A stretch of DNA of 56,080 nt from Mycolicibacterium chubuense (GTDB lineage: Bacteria > Actinomycetota > Actinomycetes > Mycobacteriales > Mycobacteriaceae), in assembly GCF_001044255.1 (NCBI RefSeq), contig NZ_JYNX01000020.1:1-56080 (forward strand), read 5' to 3'. The notes under the pieces are model-generated. The model did no database searches and was not told the DNA's origin. It saw only the letters and a list, made by a program, of their open reading frames with translations. Position 1 is the first letter of the stretch, and the number at the start of each line of letters is the position of its first letter. Below, one piece after another: positions 1 through 19,551 of this stretch. Both the position numbers and the translations under genes were made by a program.

Positions 1-170
1 GCCCACCGAGGTCGGCGTGCTCGACGAGCACCGGGAGCGGGACCAGCTACGACCGCAACGGGAAGTTCGTCGACCCCGCGGGCGGGACTGGCATCTTCGC
101 CCCCGGAGCTGACAAACTGGCGCCCGCAGAGAACTGGGTCGACCTGATGTTGTCCCCGAAGCAGGTATAG
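1..170 (+). CDS. mce4F: Mce-family protein, C-terminal end (probably Mce4F)
   Basis: Only the last 55 or so codons are present; the gene begins before the window. The readable tail contains SYDRNGKFVDPAGG and ends in AENWVDLMLSPKQV followed by TAG. Such tails close Mce proteins, which form the periplasmic substrate-binding part of Mce lipid importers. Assignment to Mce4F rests on context: the next two genes look like the Mce-associated proteins that follow mce4F and precede otsA in M. tuberculosis. Mce4 imports cholesterol in that species. The family is fairly sure; the exact paralogue is inferred. Confidence 0.7.
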   Translation, partial: PPRSACSTSTGSGTSYDRNGKFVDPAGGTGIFAPGADKLAPAENWVDLMLSPKQV

Positions 171-208
171 GCAGTCCGTTTGTGGTTGAAGAAGTAGTGG
201 GAGAAGCC

Positions 209-871
209 GTGTCCAGGCCTGCCCGGCGCCGCGCCTCGCGTGCCGCCGGGCCGGCCAGTGTCACCGAACCCGAGAGCGTCACGGCCGTCGTCGTCGACGC
301 CCCCACCGCGAAGGTGCGTCCGTCGATATCGGCCGCGCCGCCGCCGCGACGTCCCGCCCACCGCGGACTGGTGGCCCTGGTGTCGCTGCTCACGCTGGTC
401 GTGCTCGCCGGCGCGGTGGCCGGGGGAGTGGCCTGGATGCTCGCCACCCAGCGCACCGAGAAGGCTCAGCTGGCCCGCGACCAGCGCTTCGTCGACACCG
501 CGTCACAACTGGTGATCAACATGTTCAGCTACAACCAGGACGACATCGACGACAGCGTGAACCGCTTCGTCAACAGCACCAGCGGGCCGCTGCGCGACAT
601 GCTCAGCCAGGACAACAACGTCGACAACCTCAAGGCCATCTTCCGGGACACCAACGCCAGCTCGGAGGCCGTCATCAACGGCGCCGCGCTGGAGAAGGTC
701 GACAACGTCAGCGGCAACGCGGCGGTGCTGGTGTCGGCGCGGGTGACCGTGACCGACATCGACGGCACCAACAAACCCTCGCAGCCCTACCGGATGCGGG
801 TGATCGTGCACGAAGACGACAACGGACACATGACCGGCTATGACCTCAAGTACCCCGACGGCGGCAACTGA
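209..871 (+). CDS. mam4A: Mce-associated membrane protein (Mam4A-like)
   Basis: The product is about 220 residues: a basic, Ala/Pro-rich cytoplasmic N-terminus, one hydrophobic segment (GLVALVSLLTLVVLAGAVAG, roughly residues 52-75), then an extracytoplasmic domain. This is the usual layout of Mce-associated proteins, which stabilise Mce complexes (compare Rv3493c). GTG at 209 is preferred because GGGAG lies five bases upstream; an in-frame GTG at 182 would add nine residues. The gene lies 38 bases behind the Mce tail and overlaps the next gene as TGATG, so the three are co-transcribed and translationally coupled. Confidence 0.8.
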   Translation: MSRPARRRASRAAGPASVTEPESVTAVVVDAPTAKVRPSISAAPPPRRPAHRGLVALVSLLTLVVLAGAVAGGVAWMLATQRTEKAQLARDQRFVDTASQLVINMFSYNQDDIDDSVNRFVNSTSGPLRDMLSQDNNVDNLKAIFRDTNASSEAVINGAALEKVDNVSGNAAVLVSARVTVTDIDGTNKPSQPYRMRVIVHEDDNGHMTGYDLKYPDGGN

Positions 872-1365
872 TGGGTGATCGGGTCGCCAAGTTCGTCGCG
901 GCGCTGGGCGTGCTGCTGGCTCTCGGGCTGGTCGTCCTGGGCGCCGTCGGCGGGCGGCTGTATTGGAGCGGCGTCGAGCTGCGGGGCGAGCAGACCGCCC
1001 GCGCTGAGCTGGCCCCCCTTGCCCAGCAACAGATTCCGAAGGTCTTCGGGTACGACTACCAGACCGTCGAGCGCAGCCTCAACGAGATCTATCCGCTGCT
1101 GACACCGACCTACCGCAGGGAATTCGAGGACCGCGCGACCAAGGACATCATCCCGCAGGCGCGCGACCGTCAGCTCGTCAGCCAGGCGAACGTCGTGGGC
1201 GTGGGAGTGCTGGAGGCGCAACGTAATTCGGCGTCGGTGATGGTCTACATGAACCGCACCGTCACCGACAAGTCGCGTCAGCCCGTCTACGACGGGAGCC
1301 GGCTGCGCGTCGACTACCAGAAGGTCGACGGCAAATGGCTGATCAACTACATCACGCCGATCTAG
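871..1365 (+). CDS. mam4B: Mce-associated membrane protein (Mam4B-like)
   Basis: This 164-residue protein has an N-terminal transmembrane anchor (residues about 8-32) followed by an extracytoplasmic domain of the same fold type as the preceding gene, including the late [20 protein letters not shown] stretch and the ending [14 protein letters not shown]. Length and position match Rv3492c, the last gene of the mce4 operon. Its start codon overlaps the stop of the previous gene by one base. Its TAG stop shares a CTAG tetranucleotide with the stop of convergent otsA, leaving no room for a terminator between the two units. Confidence 0.8.
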
Positions 1366-2855
1366 TCCGACGTCCCGGCCAGCGCCTCCAGGAATGACCG
1401 CGCCCAGCGGTCCACGTCGTGGGCGAGCACCTGCCGGCGCAATGCCCGCATCCGCCGCCTGCCCTCTTCGGGCGCCTGCGTCAGCGCCGCCTCGATCGCG
1501 TCCTTGACGCCCTCCAGGTGATGCGGGTTGGTCAGGTAGGCCTGGCGCAATTCGGCTGCGGCTCCGGTGAATTCGCTCAGCACCAGGGCGCCGCCGAGAT
1601 CGCTGCGGCACGCGACGTACTCCTTGGCCACCAGGTTCATCCCGTCCCGCAGCGGGGTCACCAGCATGACGTCGGCGGCGACGTAGAACGCGATCAGATC
1701 CTCGCGGGGCACGGGGCGGTGCAGGTAGTGCAGGACGGGGTGGCCCACCTCCCCGTACTCGCCGTTGATGTGCCCGACCTGGCGCTCGATGTCCTCACGC
1801 ATCGCGATGTAGCTCTCCACCCGCTCGCGGCTGGGGGTGGCCAGCTGGACCAGCACAGTGTCGTTCGGGTCGACCCGGTGCTCGTCGAGCAGCTCGGAGA
1901 ACGCCCGCAGCCGCACGTCGATGCCCTTGGTGTAGTCCAGCCGGTCGACACCGAGCAGGACCTTGCGCGGGTTGCCCAGCTCGGCGCGGATCTCGCGGGC
2001 CCGCTGGCGGATCTTGCGGGTGCGGGCCTGCTGGTCGAGATCGCCGGCGTCGATCGAGATCGGGAACGCGCCCACCTTGACGGTGCGGAACCCGACGTTG
2101 ACCTCACCGAAGCGGGACCGCACGCCCACGCTGCCGCGTGAGGTGTTCGCGCCGACCAGGCGGCGGGCCAGGATCAGGAAGTTCTGCGCGCCGCCGGGCA
2201 GGTGGAACCCGACCAGGTCGGCGCCCAGCAGACCCTCGGTGATCTCGGTGCGCCACGGCATCTGCATGAACAGCTCGACCGGCGGGAACGGGATGTGCAG
2301 GAAGAAGCCGATGGTCAGATCGGGCCGCAGCATGCGCAGCATCTTGGGCACCAGCTGCAGCTGGTAATCCTGCACCCACACGGTGGCGCCTTCGGCGGCG
2401 GTCCGCGCGGTCGCCTCGGCGAAGCGGCGGTTGACCTCGACGTAGCGGTCCCACCACTCCCGGTGATAGATCGGCTTGACGATGACGTCGTGGTAGAGAG
2501 GCCACAGCGTGGCGTTGGAGAAACCCTCGTAGTACTCGGCGACGTCGTCGGCGGACAGCCGCACCGGCACGAGCGTCATGCCGTCCTGCTCGATCGGATC
2601 GTCGAAGCTGTCCGGGTCGTCGGCGTCCTGCGGCACGCCCGGCCAGCCGACCCAGGCGCCGCTGCGCTTTCGCAGCAGCGGCTCGAGTGCGGTCACCAGC
2701 CCGCCCGGACTGCGCTTGAACTCGGTGGTGCCGTCGGGCAGGAACACCATGTCGATCGGCAGCCGGTTGGCGACGACCACGAAGTCGGCCTTCGCCGACG
2801 GTGGAGCGGACTGCGCCGCGCCCGAGCGGTCCTCGGGGCCGCTCGGGTCGGTCAT
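1362..2855 (-). CDS. otsA: trehalose-6-phosphate synthase OtsA
   Basis: A GT20 glycosyltransferase that makes trehalose 6-phosphate from a nucleotide-activated glucose and glucose 6-phosphate; trehalose is needed for mycolate transfer and stress tolerance. The sequence shows [12 protein letters not shown] near the N-terminus, the [11 protein letters not shown] loop, [33 protein letters not shown] and the donor-binding end [19 protein letters not shown] at 2855 gives 497 residues, the normal length; an upstream in-frame start at 2909 would lie inside the preceding small gene and was rejected. The start overlaps the small gene's stop as TGATG, so they form one operon. Confidence 0.95.
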
Positions 2856-3019
2856 CAGGCGTCGAGCTTCGCCGGTCCGATGCCGAGCATCGACAGGAAG
2901 ACGCGGCACTCGTCGGCGTCGGTGGCGTAGGCGGCGACGACGCGGCGCGCCTGGCGTTCGGTGCTGTCGGCGATCGGCTCGACGTCGCCGAGCTCGGCGG
3001 GATCAGATTTGGCAGGCAT
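2855..3019 (-). CDS. conserved 54-residue protein (Rv3489-like)
   Basis: A short gene immediately upstream of otsA. It encodes 54 residues beginning [20 protein letters not shown] and ending [11 protein letters not shown]. Its TGA stop overlaps the otsA ATG by one base. The middle section ([20 protein letters not shown]) would form an amphipathic helix. Its size and place match Rv3489 of M. tuberculosis, an uncharacterised protein also beside otsA. No function can be read from the sequence; the coupling suggests a link to trehalose synthesis. Confidence 0.75.
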
Positions 3020-3054
3020 GCCACAACTCTAGCCAACGCCCGGCGCAGGGCCGT

Positions 3055-3060
3055 TACTGT
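3055..3060 (+). promoter_or_regulatory. -10 element TACTGT, leaderless promoter of the hydratase gene
   Basis: TACTGT lies seven bases before the GTG at 3068. This is the spacing of actinobacterial leaderless promoters, where transcription starts at the first base of the start codon. It favours 3068 over the GTG at 3059, which overlaps the element itself. Confidence 0.5.
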
Positions 3061-3067
3061 GCTCGAT

Positions 3068-3964
3068 GTGGCCGACGCCGAGCAGGTGACGTACGAAACC
3101 CTCGACGACGGGCGGATCGCCCGGATCTGGCTGAATCGCCCCGACGCGCACAACGCGCAGTCCCGCACACTGCTGGTGGCACTCGACGAGGCGTTCGGCC
3201 GCGCCGAGGCCGACGACGAGGTGCGGGTGGTCATCCTGGCCGCCCGTGGGAGGAACTTCTCGGCCGGCCACGACCTCGGCTCCGAGGCTGCGCTGGCCGA
3301 GAGGGCCCCCGGCCCCGACCAGCACCCGACGTTCCGGATCAACGGCGCGACCCGGCCCGCGATCGCCGAACGGACCTATCTGCAGGAGTGGCACTACTTC
3401 TACGAGAACACCTGCCGGTGGCGTGACCTCCGCAAGATCACCATCGCCTCGGTGCAGGGCAATGCGATCTCCGCCGCGCTGATGCTGATCTGGGCCTGCG
3501 ACCTGATCGTGGCCGCCGACGACGCCAGATTCAGCGACGTCGTCGCGGTCCGGATGGGCATGCCCGGCGTCGAGTACTACGCCCATCCGTGGGAGTTCGG
3601 CGCCCGCAAGGCCAAGGAGCTGCTGCTCACCGGCGATTCGATCGACGCCGACGAGGCACACCGGCTGGGCATGGTGTCGAAGGTGTTCGCCCGCGCCGAG
3701 CTCGAGGACAAGACCGTGGAGTTCGCGCGGCGCATCGCCGAGCGCCCGACCATGGCCGCGCTGCTGGTCAAGGACTCGGTGAATGCCGCCAGCGATGCGA
3801 TGGGCTTCGCCGAGGCGCTGCGTCACGCCTTTCACATCCACGAACTCGGTCACGCCCACTGGGCGGCGCACAACGAGAACCGGTATCCGATCGGCCTGCC
3901 GCCCGAGGTTCCGGACTGGCGCACGTCGGGACCGCCAAAGCCTGCTCGCCGCGACCAGCCGTGA
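3068..3964 (+). CDS. enoyl-CoA hydratase/isomerase family protein
   Basis: Crotonase-fold enzyme of about 298 residues, probably acting on an acyl- or steroid-derived CoA thioester. It shows the oxyanion-hole segments GRNFSAGHDLGSE and QGNAISAALMLIWACDLIVA and the helix MGMPGVEYYAHPWEFGARKAKELLLTG, with a C-terminal SVNAASDAMGFAEALRHAFH segment. The insert after GHDLGSE is longer than in the shortest family members. The start is GTG 3068, chosen from the -10 spacing. It is divergent from the otsA operon across 48 bases. The next gene carries a KstR-type box, so steroid or fatty acid breakdown is plausible, but the exact substrate cannot be read. Confidence 0.85.
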   Translation: MADAEQVTYETLDDGRIARIWLNRPDAHNAQSRTLLVALDEAFGRAEADDEVRVVILAARGRNFSAGHDLGSEAALAERAPGPDQHPTFRINGATRPAIAERTYLQEWHYFYENTCRWRDLRKITIASVQGNAISAALMLIWACDLIVAADDARFSDVVAVRMGMPGVEYYAHPWEFGARKAKELLLTGDSIDADEAHRLGMVSKVFARAELEDKTVEFARRIAERPTMAALLVKDSVNAASDAMGFAEALRHAFHIHELGHAHWAAHNENRYPIGLPPEVPDWRTSGPPKPARRDQP

Positions 3965-3972
3965 CGTATAAC

Positions 3973-3986
3973 TGGAACCTGTTCTA
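3973..3986 (+). promoter_or_regulatory. KstR operator-like palindrome
   Basis: TGGAACCTGTTCTA fits the published KstR consensus TnnAACnnGTTnnA at every fixed position. KstR is the TetR-type repressor of mycobacterial cholesterol catabolism. The site is 24 bases before the GTG of the SDR gene at 4011 and eight bases after the stop of the hydratase gene. Confidence 0.7.
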
Positions 3987-4010
3987 GTTAGGTCGTCGAA
4001 GGAGTCGAGC

Positions 4011-4832
4011 GTGGAGATCTCGTTGTCGGGACGGACGGTGCTCGTCACCGGTGGGGGCAGTGGGATCGGCAAGGCGGTGGCCACGGCCGTGGTGGAGGCC
4101 GGCGGCAACGCGATGCTGATGGGACGCAACGCCGACAAACTCGCCGCCGCCGTCGAGGAGATCGGCGGCTCGGCGCGCTACGAGCCCGGCGACGTCACCA
4201 ACGAGGACGAGGTGGCGCGCACCGTGGCGGCGGCCGCCGCGTGGACGGGCCGGCTCGACGGCGTCGTGCACTGCGCCGGCGGCAGCGACACGATCGGCCC
4301 GATCACTCATCTGGACTCCACGGCGTGGCGTCGGCTGATCGACCTGAACATCAACGGCACCTTCTATGTCCTCAAGCACGCGTCCCGCGAGATGGTCCGC
4401 GGCGGCGGCGGATCGTTCGTCGGCATCTCCTCGATCGCGGCGAGCAACACCCACCGGTGGTTCGGCGCCTACGGCGTCTCCAAGGCCGGCCTCGACCACA
4501 TGATGCAGCTGGCGGCCGACGAGCTCGGGCCGTCGCTGGTACGGGTGAACTCGCTGCGGCCGGGCCTGATCCGCACCGACCTGGTGGCGGCGATCTTCAT
4601 GTCACCGGAGGTCAGCGGGGACTACGCGGCGGCCACCCCGTTGCCCAGGCCGGGAGAGGCCGAGGACGTCGCCAACGCGGCACTGTTCCTGCTCAGCGAT
4701 GCCGCGAGCTACATCACCGGCCAGCTGATCAACGTCGACGGCGGCATGATGCTGCGCCGCGGGCCCGACTTCTCGGCGATGCTCGAACCCGTGTTCGGCG
4801 CCGAGGGTCTGCGCGGGGTGGTGACGGACTAG
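4011..4832 (+). CDS. short-chain dehydrogenase/reductase, putative KstR regulon member
   Basis: Classical SDR of 273 residues. It has the NAD(P)-binding TGGGSGIGKAV motif at about residues 14-24, the structural CAGG motif, catalytic Ser in GISSIAA, YGVSK as the Tyr-x-x-x-Lys pair and the closing YITGQLINVDGG. AAGGAG at 3999-4004 sits six bases before the GTG start. The KstR-like box just upstream suggests induction during sterol catabolism, so a hydroxysteroid or hydroxyacyl-CoA substrate is likely; this is inference. It ends in a CTAG shared with the stop of the convergent 2Fe-2S subunit gene. Confidence 0.9.
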   Translation: MEISLSGRTVLVTGGGSGIGKAVATAVVEAGGNAMLMGRNADKLAAAVEEIGGSARYEPGDVTNEDEVARTVAAAAAWTGRLDGVVHCAGGSDTIGPITHLDSTAWRRLIDLNINGTFYVLKHASREMVRGGGGSFVGISSIAASNTHRWFGAYGVSKAGLDHMMQLAADELGPSLVRVNSLRPGLIRTDLVAAIFMSPEVSGDYAAATPLPRPGEAEDVANAALFLLSDAASYITGQLINVDGGMMLRRGPDFSAMLEPVFGAEGLRGVVTD

Positions 4833-5314
4833 CTGCCCGCCGCGTCGAGCACCTCCGCGGCGCGCCGGACCGCGTTCACGATGCCCTGGTAGCCGGTGCA
4901 CCGGCAGAAGTTGCCCGACAGACCCTCGCGGATCTCGTCGTCGCTGGGGTGCGGGTTGTCGCGCAGTAGTGCGGTGATGCTCGTGACGAAACCCGGCGTG
5001 CAAAAACCACATTGGAGTCCGTGGCACTCGCGAAGCGCGGCCTGCACGGGCGAGAGCGTGCCGTCGGCGTCGGCGACGCCCTCGACGGTGGTGACCTCCT
5101 GCCCGTCGACCTGGACGGCGAAGATCAGGCAGGAGCGCACCGCCTGCCCGTCGAGCAGCACCGTGCAGGCGCCGCACGCGCCGTGCTCGCAGCCCAGGTG
5201 GGTGCCGGTGAGCCCGCACCGCTCCCGCAGATAGTCGGCCAGCGTCACCCGCGGCTCGACGGACGCGCGGTGGCGCCGGCCATTAACCGACACCTCGACG
5301 GGGATCTCATGCAC
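4829..5314 (-). CDS. molybdenum hydroxylase 2Fe-2S small subunit (CoxS/XdhC-type iron-sulfur subunit)
   Basis: 161-residue iron-sulfur subunit. The N-terminal plant-type cluster is held by GCEHGACGACTV plus RSC; the C-terminal cluster by CGFCTPGF and CRCTGYQ. Both clusters are complete. It passes electrons from the molybdenum site to FAD in a three-subunit hydroxylase. The start is GTG 5314, overlapping the end of the FAD subunit gene by eight bases. It is the last gene of the operon xdhC-like, large, CoxG-like, FAD, 2Fe-2S. Confidence 0.92.
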   Translation of the reverse strand: MHEIPVEVSVNGRRHRASVEPRVTLADYLRERCGLTGTHLGCEHGACGACTVLLDGQAVRSCLIFAVQVDGQEVTTVEGVADADGTLSPVQAALRECHGLQCGFCTPGFVTSITALLRDNPHPSDDEIREGLSGNFCRCTGYQGIVNAVRRAAEVLDAAGS

Positions 5315-6182
5315 GACGGGCCTCCGTGGTCGCCTCGAGCCAGGCCCGCGCCGCCATCGTGGCGCCGACCTTCCTGCGATAGTCCGCGCTGCCCTGCAGG
5401 TCGGCGGGGATGTCCTCGAGGGCCGACACCGCGAGCCGACCCACCTCCTCGGCGGTGACGTCGGTGACGGGTCGGCCGACCAGCGCACGCTCGGCCGGGG
5501 TGCCGCGCTGCGGCTTCGAGCCCATGCCGAGCAACCCGATGCCGCAGCGGGCGACGGTGTCGGCATCGTCGAGTTCGACCGCCACGGTGGCGCCGGCGAT
5601 CGCGAAATCGCCGTGGCGACGCGCGAATTCGTGCACCGAGAAGCCGACCCGGCCGGACCACACCGGGAAGGTGACCGCGGTGAGGATCTCGTCGGCGGCC
5701 AGCGCGGTCTCCCACAGGCCGGTGAAGAAATCGGCGGCCGGGACCCGGCGGGTGCCCCGCACCGAGGTCGCCTCGATCTCGGCGTCGAGGGTCAGCGCGA
5801 CGGCGGCGTACTCGGCGGCCGGGTCGGCGTGCGCGATCGCGCCGCCGAGGGTGCCCCGCGTGCGGATCTGGAAGTGACCGATGTGCGGTGTGGACAGCGT
5901 CAGCAGCGGAACCGCTTCGGCCACTTCGTCGTCCAGTCCGACCAGGGCGTGCGGTGTGCCCGCGGCGATGCGCACGGTGTCGACGCGCCGCTCGATGTCA
6001 CACAGTTCCCCGATGCGCGAGATGTCGATCAGGTTGTCGAAGTGGGTGAGTCGCATCGCGAGCATCGGCACCAGGCTCTGCCCTCCGGCGAGGATCTTCG
6101 CGTCCTCGCCGAGGTCGGCGAGCAGCGACAGCGCACCGGCGACGGTGTCGGGCCGGTGGTAGGCGAACGGGGCCGCTTTCAC
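5307..6182 (-). CDS. molybdenum hydroxylase FAD-binding medium subunit (CoxM-like)
   Basis: 291-residue FAD subunit starting MKAAPFAYHRPDTVAGAL. It has the two FAD motifs of this family, AGGQSLVPM and TRGTLGGAIAHADPAAE, and the C-terminal CO dehydrogenase flavoprotein domain. GTG 6182 overlaps the TGA of the CoxG-like gene as GTGA, which indicates coupled translation. It would accept electrons from the iron-sulfur subunit and pass them to an acceptor not encoded here. Confidence 0.92.
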   Translation of the reverse strand: MKAAPFAYHRPDTVAGALSLLADLGEDAKILAGGQSLVPMLAMRLTHFDNLIDISRIGELCDIERRVDTVRIAAGTPHALVGLDDEVAEAVPLLTLSTPHIGHFQIRTRGTLGGAIAHADPAAEYAAVALTLDAEIEATSVRGTRRVPAADFFTGLWETALAADEILTAVTFPVWSGRVGFSVHEFARRHGDFAIAGATVAVELDDADTVARCGIGLLGMGSKPQRGTPAERALVGRPVTDVTAEEVGRLAVSALEDIPADLQGSADYRRKVGATMAARAWLEATTEARRA

Positions 6183-6838
6183 GACAGCAGCCGGGCCAGG
6201 GCGGCCTGCAGATCCTCGGCCAGCATCGCAGCCGGGCCTCTGCGCCTGCGGCGGCCGAGCAGGAAGCCGGCCGCACCCGAGAGGGCGGCCGCGACGAGCA
6301 CCGGGGCGTAGCGTTTGGCGATCGGCGCGGCGACCACCCGCAGCAGGTCGACGGAGTCGTCGGCGGGCGCCGCGGATGTGGTCGCGGCCGGTGTTGTTCC
6401 GCCCAGTTCGGCCTCCAGGGCGCGGGCGAACTGGGCGATCAGATTCCCCGAGACGTCGGCGAGCACGCCGCGGCCGAACTGGGCGGCCTTGCCGGAGATG
6501 GCCAGGTCGGTCGCGATGGCGACGTAGGTCGACTCGCCCTCGTCCTTGAGGTGGGCGGTGACGGTGGCCGCGGCGGTGCCGTTGCCCCGGGTCTCCCGGC
6601 CCTCGGCGCGCAGCACGATGCGTCCGGCCGTCGCATCCTTCTCCTGATAGGACGCAACCCCTTTGTAGGACACCGTGATCGGGCCGACCTTGACCTTGAC
6701 CGCGCCGTCGAAGCTGTCGCCGTCGACCGACAGCAGGGTGGCGCCGGGCAGGCACGGCGCGACGCGCTCGACGTCGGTGAACACCTCCCACACCTGAGCG
6801 GCGGGGACGGCGACCCGGAAGTCGTTGTTCAGCTCCAC
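6179..6838 (-). CDS. CoxG-like SRPBCC protein with C-terminal membrane anchor
   Basis: 219 residues. The N-terminal 150 or so form an SRPBCC/CoxG domain (FRVAVPAAQVWEVFTDVERVAPCLPGATL, then VKVKVGPITVSYKGVASYQEKD). An Ala/Thr/Pro linker leads to a hydrophobic stretch (APVLVAAALSGAAGFLLG) followed by RRRRRG, so the protein is probably tethered to the inner face of the membrane. CoxG is known to anchor CO dehydrogenase to the membrane in Oligotropha and M. smegmatis. GTG 6838 overlaps the large-subunit stop by ten bases. The same role for this hydroxylase is inferred. Confidence 0.85.
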   Translation of the reverse strand: MELNNDFRVAVPAAQVWEVFTDVERVAPCLPGATLLSVDGDSFDGAVKVKVGPITVSYKGVASYQEKDATAGRIVLRAEGRETRGNGTAAATVTAHLKDEGESTYVAIATDLAISGKAAQFGRGVLADVSGNLIAQFARALEAELGGTTPAATTSAAPADDSVDLLRVVAAPIAKRYAPVLVAAALSGAAGFLLGRRRRRGPAAMLAEDLQAALARLLS

Positions 6839-9180
6839 TGTTCGTGGTCCTTTCCTCTGCCGGCGCGTTCGATGAGGTCGACGATCGTGGCCGGGGTGGC
6901 GGGCAGGTCGGTCACCGTGACGCCGAGCGGGGCCAGCGCATCGTTGATCGCGTTGATGACCGCCGGCGGGGAGCCGATGGCCCCGCCCTCGCCGGCGCCC
7001 TTGTAGCCGCCGACACCCGGGCCGGGGATCTCGACGTGACCGAACTCGATCGGCGGGACCTCGGTGGCGGTCGGCAGCAGATAGTCCACGAAGGTGGACG
7101 CGACGGGGTTGCCCGCGTCGTCGTAGGCCAGGTTCTCCAGCAGTGCACCGCCGATGCCCTGCACGGTCCCTCCGGCCACCTGTCCCTCGACCACGTTGGG
7201 GTTGATCATCGGGCCGACGTCCTCGCTGACGATGTAGCGGGTCAGCGTGACCTTCCCGGTGTCGACGTCGACCTCGCAGGTGCACACGTGAGTCGCGTTG
7301 GCCCAGTGGATCATCGCCTGGGAGGTGAATCGGGCGGTGGCCTCCAGGGTGGCCGGGACACCGCCGAGCTGCGCCGGCTCGTAGTAGGAGCGGTAGGCGA
7401 TCTCGGCGAACGTCACGCTGCGGGCCGGATCGGTGCGCAGGGTGGCCCGCGAGTCGGCCAGTTCGATGTCGGTCTCGGCCGCCCCGAGCATCTGCGCGGC
7501 GATCGCGAGGATCTGGCCGCGCAGGATCGCGCCGGCCTCGTGGACGGCGCCTGCCGTCATGGGTCCGCTGCGGCTGCCCTGGGTGCCTGCGCCGTACGGG
7601 GTGACCGCGGTGTCGCCCTGAATGGTGGACACGTCGTCGATGTCGGCGCCCAACGCATCCGCGGTCAGCTGCACCACGGTCGTCTCGATGCTGTTGCCGG
7701 CCGAGCCGCCGTTGACGTAGACGTTGACCTTGCCGGTCGGCTCCATGCGCACCGTCGCGCCCTCGGTCGCGAGGTGACCGGTCGCGGCACCGGTGGGTTC
7801 GATGTAGGCCGAGAAACCGAGCCCCACATAGCGGCCTTGCGCGAGCGCGTCGGCCTGCTCCTTGCGGAACCCCTCGTGGTCGAGGATCTTCACCGCCTGC
7901 TCGAACGTGTCGGCGGGCGCGCAGTTGTCGTACGGCATGCCGTTGGGGTTGACGTACGGCATCTCGTCGCCGCGCAGGATGTTGATGCGGCGCAGCTCGA
8001 CCGGGTCGATCCCGATCTTGCGGGCCGCGCTGTCGAGAAGCATTTCGCGCGTCAGGGTTTCGTACTGCCACGGGCCGCGGTAGGCGTGCAGGCCGGGGGT
8101 GTTCGAGAACACCGTCTTGTAGGCGAAACTGGCCTTGGGCACCCGGTAGGGGCCGGGGAAGAACATGCCGATCGCGGCGGTGGTGAGCACCGGGTAGGGC
8201 GTGGGGTAGGCGCCGACGTCCTGGACGAAGTCGATGTCGGCGGCCAGGATCTTGCCGTCGTCGTCGAACGCCATCCGCACGGTGCCGTCGACGTGGCGTG
8301 ACTGCCCGGCCGACATCAGGTTTTCGCGCCGGTCCTCGATCCACTTCAGCGCGGCCGGTACCTTGCGGGCAGCCAGCAGGATGCACATGTCCTCGCGCAT
8401 CGGCACCACCTTCTGGCCGAACGCGCCGCCGGTGTCCCGCATGATGACGCGCACCCCCTGGGCGGGGATGCCGAGCAGTCGGGCGGCGAACGCGCGCAAC
8501 TCGTGCGGCGTCTGCGTCGAGGCCCAGACGGTGAGCTCGCCGGTGCTCGACGACCACTCCACGACCATGCCGCGCGTCTCCATCGGCACCGGCACGTACA
8601 TCTGCTGGTAGATGTGTTCCTCGACGACGTGCGGTGCGGAGGCGAACAGATCCTCGTCGGGCGGCGCGCCGGCGAGGCCGCCCGCGACGTTGTCGGGGTA
8701 GGCGGCGTGCACGATCACGTCGCTGCCGACGGCGTTGCGGAAATCGGCGACGGCCGGCAGCGGGGTGTAGCCGACCTCGACGAGGTCGACGGCGTCCTCG
8801 GCGACGTAGCGGCTGTCGGCGACGACCAGCGCGACGGGATCGCCGACGAACTTCACCTCGCCCTCGGCCAGCGGCGGGCGCGGGGTGTCCGGGATGTCCT
8901 TGCCGGCGACCGCGTGCCACGCCTCCACGACGTCGGGGTTGAGGTCGGCGGCGGTGAACACGGCGTGCACGCCGGGCAGGGCCAGCGCAGCCGCGGTGTC
9001 GATGTCGTCGATCGTGGCGTGGGCGAACGGGCTGCGCACGAAGCAGGCGTGCAGCATTCCCGGGCGGGTGACGTCGTCGACGAAAGCGCCGTGACCGGTC
9101 AGAAGACGGCCGTCCTCGACCCGCGGGACGCGTCTGCCGGCATAGCGCGTGCTGACGGTGTCGACGGCGGTGTCGGTCAC
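6829..9180 (-). CDS. molybdenum hydroxylase large (molybdopterin cytosine dinucleotide) subunit, not a form I CO dehydrogenase
   Basis: 783-residue catalytic subunit of the xanthine/aldehyde/CO dehydrogenase family. It shows GRRVPRVEDGRLLTGHGAFVDD at the start, DTGGAFGQKV in the substrate channel, and GYKGAGEGGAIGSPPAV, containing the catalytic Glu, near the C-terminus. The active-site loop reads HAYRGPWQYE. Form I CO dehydrogenases have AYxCSFR there and form II AYRGAGR, so neither signature is present and the substrate is unknown. Start is ATG 9180. The intergenic stretch 9181-9253 holds GAGAGTGAC and GAGAGCGAC as a near direct repeat, possibly regulatory. Confidence 0.92.
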   Translation of the reverse strand: MTDTAVDTVSTRYAGRRVPRVEDGRLLTGHGAFVDDVTRPGMLHACFVRSPFAHATIDDIDTAAALALPGVHAVFTAADLNPDVVEAWHAVAGKDIPDTPRPPLAEGEVKFVGDPVALVVADSRYVAEDAVDLVEVGYTPLPAVADFRNAVGSDVIVHAAYPDNVAGGLAGAPPDEDLFASAPHVVEEHIYQQMYVPVPMETRGMVVEWSSSTGELTVWASTQTPHELRAFAARLLGIPAQGVRVIMRDTGGAFGQKVVPMREDMCILLAARKVPAALKWIEDRRENLMSAGQSRHVDGTVRMAFDDDGKILAADIDFVQDVGAYPTPYPVLTTAAIGMFFPGPYRVPKASFAYKTVFSNTPGLHAYRGPWQYETLTREMLLDSAARKIGIDPVELRRINILRGDEMPYVNPNGMPYDNCAPADTFEQAVKILDHEGFRKEQADALAQGRYVGLGFSAYIEPTGAATGHLATEGATVRMEPTGKVNVYVNGGSAGNSIETTVVQLTADALGADIDDVSTIQGDTAVTPYGAGTQGSRSGPMTAGAVHEAGAILRGQILAIAAQMLGAAETDIELADSRATLRTDPARSVTFAEIAYRSYYEPAQLGGVPATLEATARFTSQAMIHWANATHVCTCEVDVDTGKVTLTRYIVSEDVGPMINPNVVEGQVAGGTVQGIGGALLENLAYDDAGNPVASTFVDYLLPTATEVPPIEFGHVEIPGPGVGGYKGAGEGGAIGSPPAVINAINDALAPLGVTVTDLPATPATIVDLIERAGRGKDHEQWS

Positions 9181-13334: not shown

Positions 13335-13559
13335 AAGAAAACCCTCCAGAAGCGGTAAGCGTCCCCCGACGTACACGTCATTCAATCGCAACACAACAGG
13401 GGCGGCCGGCAAAAGGGAAGTTCGGCATCGGTTTCGTTTCCCGACCGTGACCGCGCAGACGGGGCGTGCGGGCGTCGGCGTGCAGTAGCCCACTACTGAT
13501 TCCGTCCGGGAAGTGACGCGTCATGGTTCATGTCGAGGTGCACTGCGAGAGGACGCACA
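13335..13559. other. divergent intergenic region between the DUF4185 and P450 genes
   Basis: 225 bases with no gene. It holds the Shine-Dalgarno sequence of the DUF4185 gene at its left end, the CAGTAG/CTACTG palindrome at 13480-13498, and GAGAGGA seven bases before the P450 start at its right end. On the minus strand GGGAAACGAAACC near 13430 could be a sigma-factor element, but no matching second element is convincing. Confidence 0.6.
13480..13498 (+). promoter_or_regulatory. palindromic operator candidate GTGCAGTAG-CCCA-CTACTG
   Basis: CAGTAG (13483-13488) and CTACTG (13493-13498) are exact inverted repeats around four bases. The same arms with the same N4 spacer, and the same GTG prefix, recur at 19446-19467 upstream of the ABC exporter operon. 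The site is 61 bases before the P450 start. A shared TetR-type regulator is the likely reader, but no regulator gene is adjacent. Confidence 0.6.
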
Positions 13560-14861
13560 ATGGGCCGGACTCCGCCGACTGTGAGGTCGCCCAGGCTGGT
13601 GCAGGGTGTCGAGTTCGCCGTGCTCCGGCGCCGCGCGATGCACACCTGGACGAGCCGGCGCGGGCGCGTCTTCGCCATCGACGTCCCGTTCTTCGGCCGC
13701 TCCGTCGTCGTCTCCGATCCCGCGGTGGTCAGGTCGATCTGCGCTGCGGATCCGCAACGACTGGTCAACGTGCGGCCCAACATGAGCAATCTGTTCGGCT
13801 CGGGTTCGATCTTCGCCCTGGACGGCGCCGCCCATCACGAGCGACGCCGGGTGCTCGCCCCCGCCCTGCGCGGGCACCGGCTCGCCGCCTGCGAGCAGAT
13901 CATCGAGCGGGAGACGCTCCGCGAGTGCGCCACCTGGCCCGACGGTGTCGAGTTCGCGACGCTGAGGCCGATGAGCCGGATCACGCTCAACGTGATCCTG
14001 CGGATCGTCTTCGGCGACGCACCGGACGAGATCGCCGCGTTGCGCCGTCTGGTCCCGCCCTTCATGCGGCTCGGGCAGGTGCTGGCGTTCGCGCCCGCGC
14101 CCCCGCCGTGGATCCGGGGCTGCACGCCGTGGCGCAGGCTCGACGCCTTCCGCGCCGACTTCGACCGGATCGTGACCACCCTCGTCGACAAGGCCCGCGC
14201 CGATCCGCGGTGCGCGGAGCGCACGGACATCCTGTCTCTGCTGCTGCGGTGCGGCCGGTGCGAGGGTCTCGCGGCGCTGAGCGACGAACTGCTGACCCTC
14301 ATCGGTGCGGGGTACGAGACGACTGCAGCGGCGCTCGCGTGGACGTTCGAGCGATTGCGGCGGCACCCGGATGTCCTTGCCGATCTGGTACGGGAGGTCG
14401 ACGACGGCGGCGCGGCGCTCCGACGGGCCGCTGTCTTCGAGGTGCTGCGTTCCCGGACGGTGCTCGACGTGGCCGGCCGTCGCGTCGAGGGGCCGACCAT
14501 CGACCTCGGTGGCTGGCAGGTTTCACGTCACCGCACCGTGCTCATCCGCATCGCCGATCTGCACGAGGATCCCGAGAACTTCACCGACCCAGGCGCCTTC
14601 GATCCGCACCGATTCCTCGGGGTCAAGCCGGCGGCTCCGACATGGCTGGCGTTCGGCGGCGGCACGCGACGGTGTCTCGGCGCGGACTTCGCCATCACCG
14701 AGATGGATGTCGTGCTGCGCACCGTCCTGCGGCACGTGCGCATCCACACCGATGACGCCGCCGACGAGAAGTCCCGTTTCCACGGCGTAACGAACGCGCC
14801 GAAGCGCGGCGGCCGCATCGTCGTCGACCATCGAACGGAGCCGTCATGGCCACCCACCTGA
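13560..14861 (+). CDS. cytochrome P450 of the accessory group
   Basis: 433 residues. It has the I-helix motif GAGYETTAAAL (AGxET form), the ExxR motif FEVLR and the heme loop AFGGGTRRCLGADFA with the Cys ligand. The overall form resembles class-E-type mycobacterial P450s such as the CYP135/CYP138 group; this placement is tentative. ATG 13560 has GAGAGGA seven bases upstream; an earlier ATG at 13530 lacks one. It overlaps the acyltransferase gene by 16 bases, so the two are translated together and probably act on one substrate. The redox partner is not encoded beside it. Confidence 0.9.
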   Translation: MGRTPPTVRSPRLVQGVEFAVLRRRAMHTWTSRRGRVFAIDVPFFGRSVVVSDPAVVRSICAADPQRLVNVRPNMSNLFGSGSIFALDGAAHHERRRVLAPALRGHRLAACEQIIERETLRECATWPDGVEFATLRPMSRITLNVILRIVFGDAPDEIAALRRLVPPFMRLGQVLAFAPAPPPWIRGCTPWRRLDAFRADFDRIVTTLVDKARADPRCAERTDILSLLLRCGRCEGLAALSDELLTLIGAGYETTAAALAWTFERLRRHPDVLADLVREVDDGGAALRRAAVFEVLRSRTVLDVAGRRVEGPTIDLGGWQVSRHRTVLIRIADLHEDPENFTDPGAFDPHRFLGVKPAAPTWLAFGGGTRRCLGADFAITEMDVVLRTVLRHVRIHTDDAADEKSRFHGVTNAPKRGGRIVVDHRTEPSWPPT

Positions 14862-16153
14862 TCCGGCCGCAGTCGGTGCGACCGCTCGACATCCGGTGCA
14901 GTGTCGGAGACGTCATCGTGGCGAACCTGGCTGTGCACGTCGTCTTCTTCTTCGAAAAGCGTTTGGAGACAAACGCACTGATGAAGTCCCTGGCCCGCGC
15001 TCTGGCCGGTGTGCCGATCTTCGCCGGACGGTTGCGCTGGGCCGAGGGCGGATTGCAGATCCGGTGCACCGGGCAGGGTGTTCCGTTCTCCGAGGCGTCG
15101 GCCGGCGTGACGATCGGTGAGGCCGTGCGTTCGGTGGCGGCGGACAGAGGACTCTGGTTGGTCGACCCGGTGAACGCGGTGGCGGCCCGATGGGGATGGG
15201 GCCCGCTGTGCACGGTCCGGGCCACCCATCTGGCCGGAGGTGCCACCGCGATCGGGATGTCCTGGCATCACTCGGTCGGTGACCTGCAGACGATGATGTT
15301 CCTGATGAACGCGTGGGCGGCAGCCGAGGCCGGCGAACCGATCACCGCGCCGCTGATCGTCGAGGACCGCGCCGCTCATCTCGCCGAGTACCTGCCCGCC
15401 GACACGGCGCGTGAGCCGGGCGTGCGCCACCTCGGTCTTGGTGAATTCGTCCGCAGCGCCGTGTATCTGGCCAAGGACGCGCGCAGGCAACGGACGCTCA
15501 GCCTCTATTTCGGCGACGAGGAGATGGGCCGCATGCGCGACGCGTATGGATCGCGGATCCGGCTGTCCGACAACGACATCGTGTGCGCTCATGTCGCTGA
15601 AGCCCTGATGAGATCGGACCCGACCGTGCTCCGACGCCGGCTCGCGATCGCGGTGAATGTCCGCCGCAGGTGCGGGCTGGATCCCCTGCTCGCCGGCAAC
15701 ATCCTCACCACACTGTCGGTCGAGCTGCACAGTGGTGAGGCCGCGAGCGAGATCGCCGAGCGCATCCGCCACCACGTCGACCGGTTCGGCCAGGAGCACT
15801 GCGACCTGCGCGGCAATCAGCGAATCCTGGACAGCAGCCGCGGCTCACAGGCGGCGCGCTGCGTGTCCACTGCTTTCGAACCCGCGCACTGGAATCCCCT
15901 CCTGTCGAACTGGAGCGGGTTCGGCCTCTACGGCATCCGGCTCGGCGACGCCCATCCCTGCTTCTGCACGGCCGTGCTGAGGCCACCGGTCGCGGGGCTG
16001 GGCGCCGTGCTGGAGGGGGCGGGTGGCCGCGGCCTGATGGTCCAGATGTCCCTGCCGCCCAACGACTTCGCGGCGTTTCAGCGCGTCGCGGCCGACGGGG
16101 ATCTGCATCGCTTCCGCCGGACCGGCGACCAGATCCCCGCGGTCCACGTCTAG
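14846..16153 (+). CDS. BAHD-type acyltransferase
   Basis: 435 residues resembling the plant/fungal BAHD (Pfam Transferase) family that moves acyl groups from CoA to hydroxyl or amine acceptors. The catalytic HxxxD is visible in SWHHSVGDLQ (His142, Asp146), and the late NWSGFGLYGIRLGDAHP stretch lines up with the structural DFGWG region, though that motif is degenerate; the residue after the catalytic Asp is Leu, not the usual Gly. It starts inside the P450 gene. Its stop shares CTAG with the ABC permease stop. The pairing suggests hydroxylation followed by acylation of an unknown metabolite. Confidence 0.75.
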   Translation: MATHLIRPQSVRPLDIRCSVGDVIVANLAVHVVFFFEKRLETNALMKSLARALAGVPIFAGRLRWAEGGLQIRCTGQGVPFSEASAGVTIGEAVRSVAADRGLWLVDPVNAVAARWGWGPLCTVRATHLAGGATAIGMSWHHSVGDLQTMMFLMNAWAAAEAGEPITAPLIVEDRAAHLAEYLPADTAREPGVRHLGLGEFVRSAVYLAKDARRQRTLSLYFGDEEMGRMRDAYGSRIRLSDNDIVCAHVAEALMRSDPTVLRRRLAIAVNVRRRCGLDPLLAGNILTTLSVELHSGEAASEIAERIRHHVDRFGQEHCDLRGNQRILDSSRGSQAARCVSTAFEPAHWNPLLSNWSGFGLYGIRLGDAHPCFCTAVLRPPVAGLGAVLEGAGGRGLMVQMSLPPNDFAAFQRVAADGDLHRFRRTGDQIPAVHV

Positions 16154-18711
16154 CTGTCGCGCAATACCTCGGCCGTCTCCAGCCGGCGTGACCGGATCAC
16201 CGGATACGCCGCGGCGGTCAGGACGAGCCCGAACACGGCGACGATCCCGGTCCGCACGGGCAGCGCCGGCACCCCCCAGTCGATGGCGATGCCGTAGTAG
16301 ACCGGTGAGCCCAGCGACCACAGATAGGTCAGACCGATACCGCCGAGCACCGCCACGACGGCGACCAGCGAGGCGAGCAGGACCGCGTTGGCCACGATCG
16401 TCAGCTGCTCCTGCACGGAGGTCGCCCCGACCGCCCGCAGCACCGCCCGCTCGCGGGTGCGCTGCACCAGCCCCAGCACGAAAACGTTCAGCACGCTCAC
16501 ACCGGCGGCCGCCATCACCACATAGCCGGCGATCGTGAACGGTTGCAGGAAGCGGGTGATGCCGCGGGTGGCTTCCGAGCGCCACTGCTCGTCGTCGTAC
16601 ACGCGCAGACCGGCGTCGAGCCCGGTGAAGTCGGTACGGTGTGCGGTGGCCTCGGCGGGGGAGGAGTAGGCCACCGCGACCTGATCGCGCAGCGCGGCCC
16701 AGTCGGTGCGGGCCAACGGGGCCGATACCAGCACGATGTCGCCCACTGCGGCGTCGTTGACCATCCGCGGACGGAAGATCCCTGCGACGTCGAACGTCTT
16801 CGGACCTGCCACGGTGGGCAGCGTGACCGTGTCGCCCGGACCGACACCCAGCCGGCTCGCGGCGATCGTGCTCAGCCCGACGGCCCCGTGGGCCAGCCCC
16901 GTCCAGAAGCGCTCCGGGGCGTCCGGCCCGTACAGCGCGGTGCTGTACCAATCGCCCGGCGTGACGCCGACGACCAGCCGCGCGTCCGCGCCCGACGAGA
17001 TCGTCGAGCGCCACCGCGACGACACGCTGCGGCCCCCTGCGGCCTCGGCGATCGCCGGGTAGGTGTCCTCGGCGAGCCGGCCGTCCCGCTGATCCAGGAC
17101 TGACTGGGGGGAGATCAGCAGGGCGGCCGGCAGTCTGGAGGCCTTCTGCGCGGCGATCTGCTCGGTGCCGAGCACCTGCATGCTCTGCGACCCGATGGCC
17201 AGGCTGGTGGCTTCGGCGAGCAGGGCGGCCGACAGTGCGAACAACAGGGCGTAGCGGCGGAAGTCGGCGCCCAGCAGACGTCCGAGCGCCGGATGGGCAG
17301 TCGTGATCAGGGCGATCAACGGGCCGGCGGCACGCGGCGCGATCCACACCGTCGTGAGCACCACGCCGCACAACCCGACCGTCATCGCGTCGACCCCGAC
17401 GCGCACCGGCCACGGCCCGCGCGCGAACACCGTCGACACCGCGACGGCTCCCACCAGCAGGCTGACGCCGGCGAGCAACGGCCACAACGGGATTCGTCGT
17501 TCCCTCTGCATACCACCGACACTTGCCATCGAGGCCAGCGGGCCGGTGCGCATCAGCCGGGCCGCCGGTCCGGTCATCGCGAAGGTGCCACAGACGGCAC
17601 CGGAGATCGCCCCGGTGACGACCAGGGTCGGGGTGAAGTGTGCGGTGATCGTCGCGCCGGATCCGGCCAGCATCGACTGCCCGAACCGATCCACCAGGTA
17701 CGTCCCCAGCAGGAAACCGCTCGGCACCCCCAGCAGACCGCCGAGCACGCCGACCACGGCGCCCTCGCCCAGCATTCCGCCGAACAGCCCGACCGGCCCG
17801 GCGCCGATCGCGCCGACGGTTCCCATCACCGTGCGCCGGTCCTCGACCGCCAGCAGGATCGTGTTCACCGCGATGAGAATCCCGACGATGATGCCGGCCA
17901 GCGCGACCAGGTCGAGACTCTGCTTGCTGTTCTCGAACACCGCCGGCAGCTGCGGGCGGGGTGGCCCGGTGGTCGCCACCCCGGCGACGACCCGGTCGAC
18001 ATCGGCCGCGACGCGCGGCGCATCTGCGCCCGGCACGACGAAGGCGGCGGTGGCGTAGCCCGGCGCGCCGAGCAGACGTGCCGCGAGTTCGGCGCTGGGT
18101 GCCAGCAGCACGTAGCCGTCGTTGATGCCTTTCACGCGCTCGAATTCCGGAAACGTCCAGCCGAGGTGCGCCGCGCCGCGGGGCAGCCCCGGGATGCGGA
18201 TCTCGTCACCCGTGTGCAGGCCCAGCCGTTCGGCGATCACAACCGGAATCTGCAGCGGCACGCCGGGACCGGCCGCCGGCGGGTCGCTGCGGGCGCGGCG
18301 CTCGCAGTCGAACGGGCCGACCAGCAATTCGATCTGACACGACCCGCCGAGCAGGAAGAAGCCGTGGCTGCCGGTCGCGTCGCCCACCGGTGTCAGGTTC
18401 CCCACGACCGGGATGACCGCCTCGGCTCCGGTCACCTCCGTGCGCAGCCGCTCGACGACGTCGAACGGCAGCCGGCCTTCGACGTTCGGGGTCACCGCGA
18501 TGACCTCGGCACCGGCCGCTCGCACGAGGGACGGACCGAACGAGTCGAACGGGCGGACGAGTTCGGCTTTGAGGATGAGGACCCCCAGAACCACCGTCAC
18601 GCCGAGCGCGACTCCGATGATGCTGAGCAGGGTCCGGTGCCAGTCTGCGGCCAGCGCGGCGAGGTGGATGCGTCGGAACGACAACCACTGCGCGCGGAGC
18701 CTGCGCGTCAC
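16150..18711 (-). CDS. FtsX/MacB-type ABC transporter permease
   Basis: 853 residues with duplicated architecture. An N-terminal membrane segment (LLSIIGVALGVTVVLGVLIL), an extracytoplasmic domain of about 200 residues, and three membrane spans (IIVGILIAVNTILLAVEDRRT and after) are repeated in the second half, which ends with TYLWSLGSPVYYG and a last span near PVRTGIVAVFGLVL. Such permeases export lipids, peptides or drugs, or extract lipoproteins, by mechanotransmission. The start overlaps the ATPase gene stop as ATGA. Its tail meets the acyltransferase gene at a shared CTAG. Confidence 0.88.
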   Translation of the reverse strand: MTRRLRAQWLSFRRIHLAALAADWHRTLLSIIGVALGVTVVLGVLILKAELVRPFDSFGPSLVRAAGAEVIAVTPNVEGRLPFDVVERLRTEVTGAEAVIPVVGNLTPVGDATGSHGFFLLGGSCQIELLVGPFDCERRARSDPPAAGPGVPLQIPVVIAERLGLHTGDEIRIPGLPRGAAHLGWTFPEFERVKGINDGYVLLAPSAELAARLLGAPGYATAAFVVPGADAPRVAADVDRVVAGVATTGPPRPQLPAVFENSKQSLDLVALAGIIVGILIAVNTILLAVEDRRTVMGTVGAIGAGPVGLFGGMLGEGAVVGVLGGLLGVPSGFLLGTYLVDRFGQSMLAGSGATITAHFTPTLVVTGAISGAVCGTFAMTGPAARLMRTGPLASMASVGGMQRERRIPLWPLLAGVSLLVGAVAVSTVFARGPWPVRVGVDAMTVGLCGVVLTTVWIAPRAAGPLIALITTAHPALGRLLGADFRRYALLFALSAALLAEATSLAIGSQSMQVLGTEQIAAQKASRLPAALLISPQSVLDQRDGRLAEDTYPAIAEAAGGRSVSSRWRSTISSGADARLVVGVTPGDWYSTALYGPDAPERFWTGLAHGAVGLSTIAASRLGVGPGDTVTLPTVAGPKTFDVAGIFRPRMVNDAAVGDIVLVSAPLARTDWAALRDQVAVAYSSPAEATAHRTDFTGLDAGLRVYDDEQWRSEATRGITRFLQPFTIAGYVVMAAAGVSVLNVFVLGLVQRTRERAVLRAVGATSVQEQLTIVANAVLLASLVAVVAVLGGIGLTYLWSLGSPVYYGIAIDWGVPALPVRTGIVAVFGLVLTAAAYPVIRSRRLETAEVLRDS

Positions 18712-19427
18712 GCCTGCCCCGCGACGGCGGTGACCGCGCCGGCGTGCCCGTCGACCAGGTGCAGTTCGCGGGACCCGTAGCTCGCTGCTGTCCGGTCGTG
18801 GGTCACCATCACGACCGCGGTGCCGTCCTCGTCGGTCAACGCGCGCAGAAGGTCCAGCACCTCGGCCGATGAGTGGCTGTCGAGATTTCCGGTGGGCTCG
18901 TCGGCGAGCACCATCGACGGTCGGGCCACCAGTGCGCGCGCCACCGCCACGCGCTGCAGCTGACCGCCGGAGAGTTCGGCCGGCCGGTGCCGGGCCCGGT
19001 CGGCGAGCCCGACCCGGGCCAGCAGCTCGGCGGCGCGGGCGTCGGCCCGGCGTGCGGGCACGCCGTCGAGCACCAGCGGCAGGGACACGTTCTCGACGGC
19101 GGTCAGCATCGGCACCAGGTTGAAGAACTGGAACACGAAGCCCAGGTTGCGGCGACGGAAGGCGGCACGGGCCGCGACGCTCATCGACCAGACGTCCCGC
19201 CCGGCGACCGCCACGGTGCCACGGTCCGGTTCGTCCAGTCCGCCCGCGACGTGCAGCAGGGTGGACTTGCCGGCCCCCGACGGTCCGGTCACGACGACGA
19301 ATTCGCCTGCGAACAAGGTGAAGTCGACGCCGACCAGCACGCGAACCTGTTCGTCGCCTCTGCGGTACGTCTTGTCGACGTTCTCGAGTCGCAGTACCGG
19401 ATCCCCGCTCACCCGGGTAATGGTCAC
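18708..19427 (-). CDS. ABC transporter ATPase (LolD/MacB type)
   Basis: 239 residues with Walker A GPSGAGKST, Q-loop FVFQFFNLVP, signature ELSGGQLQRVAVARAL, Walker B MVLADEPTGNLDS and the H-loop VTHD, all intact. It forms the motor of the exporter with the permease encoded directly downstream. GTG 19427 is the first codon after the palindrome at 19446-19467, which leaves an 18-base gap, so a regulator bound there would block transcription or initiation. Confidence 0.92.
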   Translation of the reverse strand: MTITRVSGDPVLRLENVDKTYRRGDEQVRVLVGVDFTLFAGEFVVVTGPSGAGKSTLLHVAGGLDEPDRGTVAVAGRDVWSMSVAARAAFRRRNLGFVFQFFNLVPMLTAVENVSLPLVLDGVPARRADARAAELLARVGLADRARHRPAELSGGQLQRVAVARALVARPSMVLADEPTGNLDSHSSAEVLDLLRALTDEDGTAVVMVTHDRTAASYGSRELHLVDGHAGAVTAVAGQA

Positions 19428-19445
19428 GCCGGTGTGCGGCTGCGC

Positions 19446-19467
19446 GTGCAGTAGCGCGCTACTGCAC
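19446..19467 (-). promoter_or_regulatory. perfect 22-base palindrome upstream of the ABC exporter operon
   Basis: The 11-base arm GTGCAGTAGCG is followed at once by its exact reverse complement. It contains CAGTAG-CGCG-CTACTG, the same arms as at 13480-13498. It lies between the tRNA-Thr gene and the ATPase start. Confidence 0.65.
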
Positions 19468-19476
19468 TTCGCGCGG

Positions 19477-19551
19477 TGGAGCCCCCTGTCAGGATTGAAC
19501 TGACGACCTACGCTTTACAAGAGCGTTGCTCTACCGCTGAGCTAAGGAGGC
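19477..19551 (-). tRNA. tRNA-Thr (anticodon TGT)
   Basis: The minus strand folds into a full cloverleaf. The acceptor GCCTCCT pairs with AGGGGGC; the anticodon arm is ACGCT-CTTGTAA-AGCGT, giving anticodon TGT; the T arm is GTCAG-TTCAATC-CTGAC; CCA is encoded at the 3' end (19477-19479). The 3' end faces the P450/acyltransferase/ABC group. Confidence 0.95.

Follow-up and report, generated by a model that had tools for sequence, protein, structure and literature searches.

A cytochrome P450, a BAHD-type acyltransferase and an FtsX/ABC exporter between two palindromic promoters of Mycolicibacterium chubuense, with a LAL-type LuxR clade as candidate activator

BAHD chemistry is known chiefly from plants and fungi. 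Exporters in which a LolD/MacB-like ATPase is paired with an FtsX permease include MacB, LolCDE and DevBCA. As for regulation, TpdR of Rhodococcus jostii TMP1, one of the large ATP-binding regulators of the LuxR family (LAL), is reported to activate the P-TTMP promoter (PMC6099782), and for IniR (Rv0339c), a large ATPase of mycobacterial signal transduction, activation of an envelope-stress operon is reported, with a chromatin immunoprecipitation peak before iniBAC (PMC5760070). We analysed a 56,080-nt stretch of Mycolicibacterium chubuense (contig NZ_JYNX01000020.1, positions 1 to 56,080; hereafter the window), in which a four-gene module, represented by a cytochrome P450 and a BAHD-type acyltransferase on the + strand and by an FtsX permease and an ATP-binding cassette (ABC) ATPase on the - strand, lies between two exact palindromes. 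The module is probably activated by a LAL regulator through two promoters of the same design, and it would tailor and export a small molecule.

The P450 (13560..14861, + strand; PF00067, 3.5e-39) and the BAHD gene (14846..16153, + strand; PF02458, 6.6e-31) overlap by 16 bases (14846-14861). The pair meets tail to tail, with 4 bases shared between the BAHD and FtsX ends, the unit formed solely by an FtsX/MacB-type permease (16150..18711, - strand; PF02687, 9.7e-21, in 2 stretches, with weak MacB/ADOP matches) and a LolD/MacB/DevA-like ABC ATPase (18708..19412, - strand, in an open reading frame (ORF) extendable to 19427; PF00005, 2.3e-32, and NCBIfam LolD, 5.2e-73, the latter under its cut-off). 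The four identities, the overlap and the tail-to-tail arrangement had all been proposed from the letters of the window by an earlier annotation (hereafter the sequence-only reading), and they were confirmed.

That reading had also described one and the same palindrome before both units, seen nowhere else in the window, and both points hold: CAGTAGCCCACTACTG (13483-13498, + strand, spacer CCCA) and CAGTAGCGCGCTACTG (19449-19464, read on the minus strand, spacer CGCG) are the sole exact CAGTAG-N4-CTACTG matches. Only the exact palindromes were taken as meaningful here, because with up to 3 mismatches the window gives 10 matches against 6.9 expected. The further idea that the palindrome marks the module stood in part: it does front both units, but it also belongs to a broader group of promoters. 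The 5.95-Mb genome holds 6 perfect sites. When 1 mismatch was allowed, the genome gave 11 sites in total against 8 for the reversed control, hence single near-matches are weak, and the tighter pattern CAGTAGYRCRCTACTG gave 4 against 0 in the source genome.

The palindromes are part of a promoter of fixed geometry. Precisely, we considered 46 sites with at most 1 mismatch from the window, its own genome and relatives (orthologous loci are included, so that the sites are not fully independent), and the motif A..ATT was found exactly 24 bp past the palindrome, on either strand, in 20 of them, while each other offset from 10 to 59 gave at most 1, with a background of about 0.001 per offset. With looser scoring, a hexamer with at least 5 of 6 positions stood at 24 bp in 31 of the 46 sites; this score was chosen after inspection of the data, and the A..ATT count over all the offsets is its check. 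If the hexamer is a -10 element, the centre of the palindrome would lie near -44, the position taken by class II activators of the LuxR type. In addition, of 55 promoters selected for a hexamer at 24 bp, about half (27 by summed counts) have GTA[GC] at 28-31 bp upstream of the palindrome.

In the window, the -10-like hexamer ATGGTT (13523..13528, + strand), exactly 24 bp past the left palindrome as in the spacing rule of the 46 sites, faces the P450, and ACCATT (19419..19424, - strand), exactly 24 bp past the right palindrome on the minus strand, faces the ABC gene; these palindromes are candidate operators, of activator type on the left, of the P450-BAHD and ABC-FtsX units, respectively. A model based on 17 promoters outside the own genome and outside the module, built from sequence only, ranked the right site second among its matches in the own genome, at E 1.2e-5 over model positions 1-53; an earlier model, trained on the window sites, was not used as evidence. 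The left palindrome was the 8th of 19 rows (E 0.002) and, since the match covers the palindrome part only (model positions 3-32), ATGGTT adds nothing to it. The hexamers also bear on the gene starts. ATG 13560 is the more likely start of the P450, in preference to 13530, because the hexamer occupies 13523-13528, and the hexamer at 19419-19424 makes a start of the ABC gene near GTG 19412 more likely than one at 19427, possibly on a leaderless transcript. A service of both directions by one site is not favoured in the window, as each palindrome has one better direction; AGGATT, 26 bp from the right site on the other strand and beside a tRNA-Thr gene, was taken as chance.

Conservation was evaluated on 19 named loci (L numbers) obtained by a scan of named genomes, in which the BAHD protein is 56-96% identical (96% in M. 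chlorophenolicum and 56-63% in the other loci). They include four Mycolicibacter, M. gordonae CTRI 14-8773, M. stellerae, an unplaced actinomycete metagenome-assembled genome and a record titled Williamsia faeni (UNVERIFIED_CONTAM). Absences of P450, FtsX, ABC and LAL genes were called by tblastn, because the rough gene caller missed some genes. The FtsX gene is present in all 19 loci and the ABC gene in 18 (L085 ends before it), and the P450 was not found in 2 (L077 and L094, the BAHD reading of the latter containing a stop codon); so the four genes, expected to stay together in relatives, do so as far as BAHD and exporter are concerned, with no P450 found in two cases. These loci overlap with the 10 sampled BAHD genomes mentioned below (e.g. 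L079 and G112) and the counts are not additive.

Upstream of the P450, a site with at most 2 mismatches was found in all the 17 named loci that have this gene, 15 of them with a hexamer of at least 5 of 6 positions at 24 bp, and at the ABC gene in 14 of the 17 with upstream sequence; the best site within 700 bp was picked by mismatches and hexamer together, a procedure that favours good hexamers. The M. chlorophenolicum locus (L076) has the same hexamer as the P450 promoter of the window. In L078, L092 and L094 the two units are divergent, and each retains a palindrome that faces outward, with 32-33 bp between the two. Sites kept despite a rearranged gene order are good evidence of selected co-regulation, which we regard as very probable for the two units. 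The loss of the palindromes from orthologous loci had been indicated beforehand as what could refute a co-regulated four-gene module; they are conserved at most P450 and ABC genes, in support of that proposal.

The candidate regulator emerged from the surroundings of the sites. In the own genome, two sites adjoin genes whose LuxR-family products carry a GerE domain at the C-terminus and, at the N-terminus, an AAA_16 match below the Pfam cut-off, and the clade has there the members G000:C60:142018-144651, G000:C36:76397-78976 and G000:C66:26792-29413. GerE was found in all the 5 LAL proteins scanned (9.7e-11 to 1e-13, all over the cut-off) and AAA_16 in 4, in 3 of these below the Pfam cut-off, the fifth (L042) being a start-truncated gene call; the scanned proteins show the LAL architecture, that is, a large size, an N-terminal ATPase and a C-terminal LuxR/GerE helix-turn-helix (HTH). 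A search with the C60 protein gave a match of at least 700 bits in 56 of 148 genomes of the genus; the threshold (700 bits, at least 48% identity) was chosen after inspection of the data, and the independent promoter model is its check. This model had a match in 40 of the 148 genomes, 38 of which have the LAL clade, against 56 of 148 overall (Fisher 4e-19). Exact sites give a concordant picture: of the 21 genomes that carry them, 20 have the clade, and of the 26 such sites outside the own genome, 6 are at most 7.5 kb from a LAL gene. As for linkage, a LAL gene was found at no more than 1 kb from 21 of 82 distinct promoter places, where 0.1 would be expected; 20 of these places are on the 3' side of the gene and 19 share its strand, and among the 65 places outside the training set the number is 20. 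All the 10 sampled BAHD genomes have the clade, a LAL gene is in the same stretch in 7 of the 19 named loci (L089, L078, L083, L084, L092, L093 and L094), and in L089 it lies inside the module, between BAHD and FtsX. We consider it quite probable that this clade is the regulator, presumably by direct binding, and just as probable that it activates rather than represses.

Several observations weigh against this assignment. Of the two sites at LAL genes of the own genome, that next to C60 is directed away from the gene, and that at the C36 gene start lacks a good hexamer. Two genomes, G078 and G107, have promoter matches without a LAL of the clade (G107 has only a 31% partial match), and the promoter model, at E < = 0.001 and with stricter filters, found nothing in 18 of the 56 genomes with the LAL clade. 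The kinship of the genomes inflates the co-occurrence test, so that linkage is the stronger one. The recognition helix SVRTVE[GS]H, present in 7 of 7 LAL proteins, is typical of the whole LuxR family and does not discriminate. Among the loci, the ABC gene has no palindrome within 700 bp in L093 and only one with 3 mismatches in L086, its palindrome in L079 lacks a hexamer at 24 bp, and L077 (titled Williamsia), which has BAHD, FtsX and ABC, shows neither a palindrome within 700 bp nor, by tblastn, a P450. The G107 promoter (L047, 6068) is itself a very good match, for which a second regulator or a recent loss is possible.

TpdR offers a similar geometry: its repeat boxes, which span -51 to -37 and -79 to -65, are close to the positions of the palindrome (near -44) and of the additional GTA[GC] about 30 bp upstream, but the proposed site is there a 15-nt direct repeat and the target a degradation operon, whereas here an exact palindrome fronts an export module (PMC6099782). 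IniR shares with the clade the nature of a large mycobacterial ATPase-type regulator (PMC5760070), and in our comparison the LAL protein tested matched the IniR model over the HTH only, with 41.6 bits against a cut-off of 750; it is related to IniR and to AbsR2 (below cut-off) and is neither of them. Among open-licence PubMed Central (PMC) papers, a mapped target was found for a single LAL-like regulator of mycobacteria, IniR, and searches for four exact palindromes, and for BAHD with Mycobacterium or Streptomyces, returned no occurrence of the former and no paper on this module, respectively. A search of PHROGs gave nothing specific.

On these grounds, a signal would switch on the ATPase/sensor part of the LAL protein, which as a dimer would bind the palindrome centred near -44 and activate RNA polymerase at the hexamer 24 bp downstream. 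The P450 would then hydroxylate a small substrate, perhaps lipid- or terpenoid-like. The BAHD enzyme, with acyl-CoA as donor, would acylate either this hydroxyl or a different one, and the product would leave the cytoplasm through the FtsX/ABC pair. That the four proteins form one pathway of oxidation, acylation and export, in this order and direction, is a proposal that we favour slightly. The locus supplies a few testable elements: a promoter that can be recognised by its palindrome, 24-bp spacing and A..ATT motif, a clade of regulators as candidates, and two tailoring enzymes that form an unusual pair beside an exporter. The small molecules that mycobacteria export attract wide interest, and the probable activator, a sensor protein of the LuxR family that has been little studied, would open a route to both signal and product in this environmental-type mycobacterium.

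The exporter combines the LolD/MacB-like ATPase with the FtsX permease, the pairing of the MacAB type that it has in common with MacB, LolCDE and DevBCA, from which it differs in that the permease has 853 residues and two FtsX domains; no partner of the MacA/HlyD type was noticed in the locus, the neighbours in relatives having been domain-scanned in part. At E < = 1e-60, 13 of the 148 genomes have FtsX orthologues, all among the 56 with the LAL clade, namely the 10 BAHD genomes, G054, G041 (two copies) and G119. The last three, in which the permease has no adjoining P450-BAHD pair, together with the BAHD-exporter loci L077 and L094, in which no P450 was found, suit a different explanation, in which the LAL clade regulates both units but these are not one pathway, the exporter having an envelope or stress role and the P450-BAHD pair being an unrelated passenger. 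Other genes at such promoters, which encode apparently secreted beta-propeller/Big_9-type, PE-PPE-domain and glucose/sorbosone dehydrogenase-PKD proteins and make the wider regulon look outward-facing, would agree with it as well. Against this stand the presence of the exporter in 10 of 10 sampled BAHD genomes, within a few kb of BAHD in the loci read, and the position of the permease beside or near other biosynthetic genes in G041 and G119, so that we judge a mere passenger unlikely, though it is the most serious competitor of a single pathway.

In G041, one permease (contig C148, with no ABC gene called) is followed by a palindromic-type promoter and a six-gene operon, and an acyltransferase-domain gene is near the other (C266). 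The six genes (L123 1872-7636) are of TauD, AMP-ligase, hexapeptide transferase, carrier, crotonase and Asn-synthase-like type. In G119, the ABC-FtsX genes are about 4 kb, across a cyclase-type gene, from genes for an adenylation/carrier/thioesterase protein, a flavin-dependent (FAD) monooxygenase, a short-chain dehydrogenase/reductase, a P450 and a methyltransferase, which may be unrelated to the exporter. Because the permease adjoins or is near such genes, these few loci suggest that the exporter moves small molecules and that the cassettes are exchangeable. A broader and tentative extension, which we put forward as possible rather than probable, is that the FtsX permease is a shared export chassis, to which various biosynthetic cassettes are coupled in different mycobacteria, all held together by a LAL-LuxR regulon that has not been described before and has a palindromic -44 promoter. 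If true, this would be a signal-gated, exchangeable system of chemical export, with P450-BAHD here, the six-gene operon in G041, and a P450, a methyltransferase and NRPS-type surroundings in G119.

Returning to the LAL clade as activator, the sequence-only reading had looked instead to a TetR regulator, and the palindrome could in principle be the operator of a TetR- or GntR-type repressor encoded elsewhere. Short perfect palindromes are typical of repressors, and inspection by eye showed TetR-like genes close to the module or exporter in three loci (L026, L081 and L124) and close to a different site in L036. The fixed 24-bp spacing to the hexamer over unrelated targets suits, however, an activator near -44, and the gene that recurs beside the sites is the LAL gene, while no recurring repressor was seen among neighbours that were not systematically domain-scanned. 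A LAL activator was therefore preferred to TetR on account of co-occurrence, linkage and the place inside the L089 module, and we hold a repressor operator to be improbable.

The acyltransferase shares with plant hydroxycinnamoyltransferases (HCTs) and fungal TRI101 the Pfam family, the HxxxD motif and the predicted fold, and differs in being bacterial, about 20% identical, without DFGWG and next to an exporter. Its PF02458 match is nearly full-length (residues 15-413, 107.9 bits against a curated cut-off of 22.7). A first AlphaFold2 model from 10 sequences was too poor for structure search (predicted local distance difference test, pLDDT, 43.9), and one from 21 sequences reached a pLDDT of 74.4 and a predicted template modelling (TM) score of 0.80. 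The 41 best PDB matches of this model are BAHD or CER2-like proteins, with plant HCTs first (E 4.0e-23, TM 0.72), and the sequence also matches plant hydroxycinnamoyltransferases in PDB. The BAHD fold, whose absence from a predicted structure had been set beforehand as a ground for rejection, is thus what the modelling returned. The H142 and D146 residues of the HxxxD motif are invariant in all 21 aligned sequences; DFGWG is kept in none of the 19 mycobacterial-type ones, its place being taken by IRLGD in the window and mostly by xFEDT-like residues in relatives. That the protein is no acyl-transfer catalyst and has another role, as in plant CER2-like proteins, would fit the loss of DFGWG and the CER2/CER26-like chains among the structure matches, but it is hardly probable given the invariant H142 and D146 and given that DFGWG is regarded as structural rather than catalytic. 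The protein is, on model and alignment, a predicted BAHD-fold enzyme with a divergent second motif.

BAHD genes are otherwise rare: PF02458 is present in 2 of 396 Actinomycetota genomes (the source genome and G170), and orthologues of the window protein occur in 10 of the 148 genomes sampled from the genus and in 3 of the 301 sampled from the family. An eleventh match in the genus (G139) was rejected as spurious, with 35% identity over about 100 residues, and a plasmid search gave one distant BAHD (31%) on a Streptomyces plasmid, with no recognisable module genes within 10 kb.

The P450 should be active, since the heme cysteine, the ExxR motif and the I-helix motif (AGxETT) are kept in all 15 proteins aligned, i.e. 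that of the window and 14 of the 17 from named loci; C372, E294/R297, A250-G251 and E253-T255 are invariant. Family models place it only loosely. In Mycolicibacter senuensis (L030 9958-11286 / L093 4884-6212), a second, distantly related P450 is inserted in the module, with its own palindrome and hexamer.

The DUF4185 gene, left of the module, had been proposed as a possible member through a shared left operator, and this was not borne out. It occurs in 2 of the 19 named loci (L076 and L079), neither window hexamer faces it, and on its side of the 13483 site the best hexamer has 3 of 6 positions (2 of 6 at 24 bp in L076), which together rule it out as a core member. Its start is more likely at TTG 13334 than at GTG 13493, as the latter falls within the palindrome. 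G054 (L125 2887-13973) leans the other way: it has DUF4185, FtsX and ABC at the same chromosomal place, without P450 and BAHD, and there FtsX is followed after about 110 bp, in the same orientation, by DUF4185, which could be co-transcribed with the exporter in that genome. Since these three genes stay in place without the pair, the P450-BAHD pair appears to come or go as a unit. A large beta-propeller gene with its own palindromic-type promoter is also found at this place in L125.

Large STAND (signal transduction ATPases with numerous domains) proteins with a cyclase domain recur near palindromes (L034, L038, L040, L041, L044, L046, L049 and L052). As DNA binders they were discarded, one being scanned without GerE and the others having no HTH-like C-terminus by eye; as a speculation, they may be signalling partners. 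One of the best-scoring promoters of the own genome (L010 6436-6485) has no convincing gene on that strand, where a 53-aa ORF is at 6510-6671, and its target could be a small protein or an RNA. Finally, flanking genes vary by lineage, and M. chlorophenolicum, G112 and G054 share those of the window. Just outside the right palindrome is the tRNA-Thr (tgt) gene (19477-19551, - strand), a common insertion point of islands, yet the flanks are syntenic with M. chlorophenolicum and G054.

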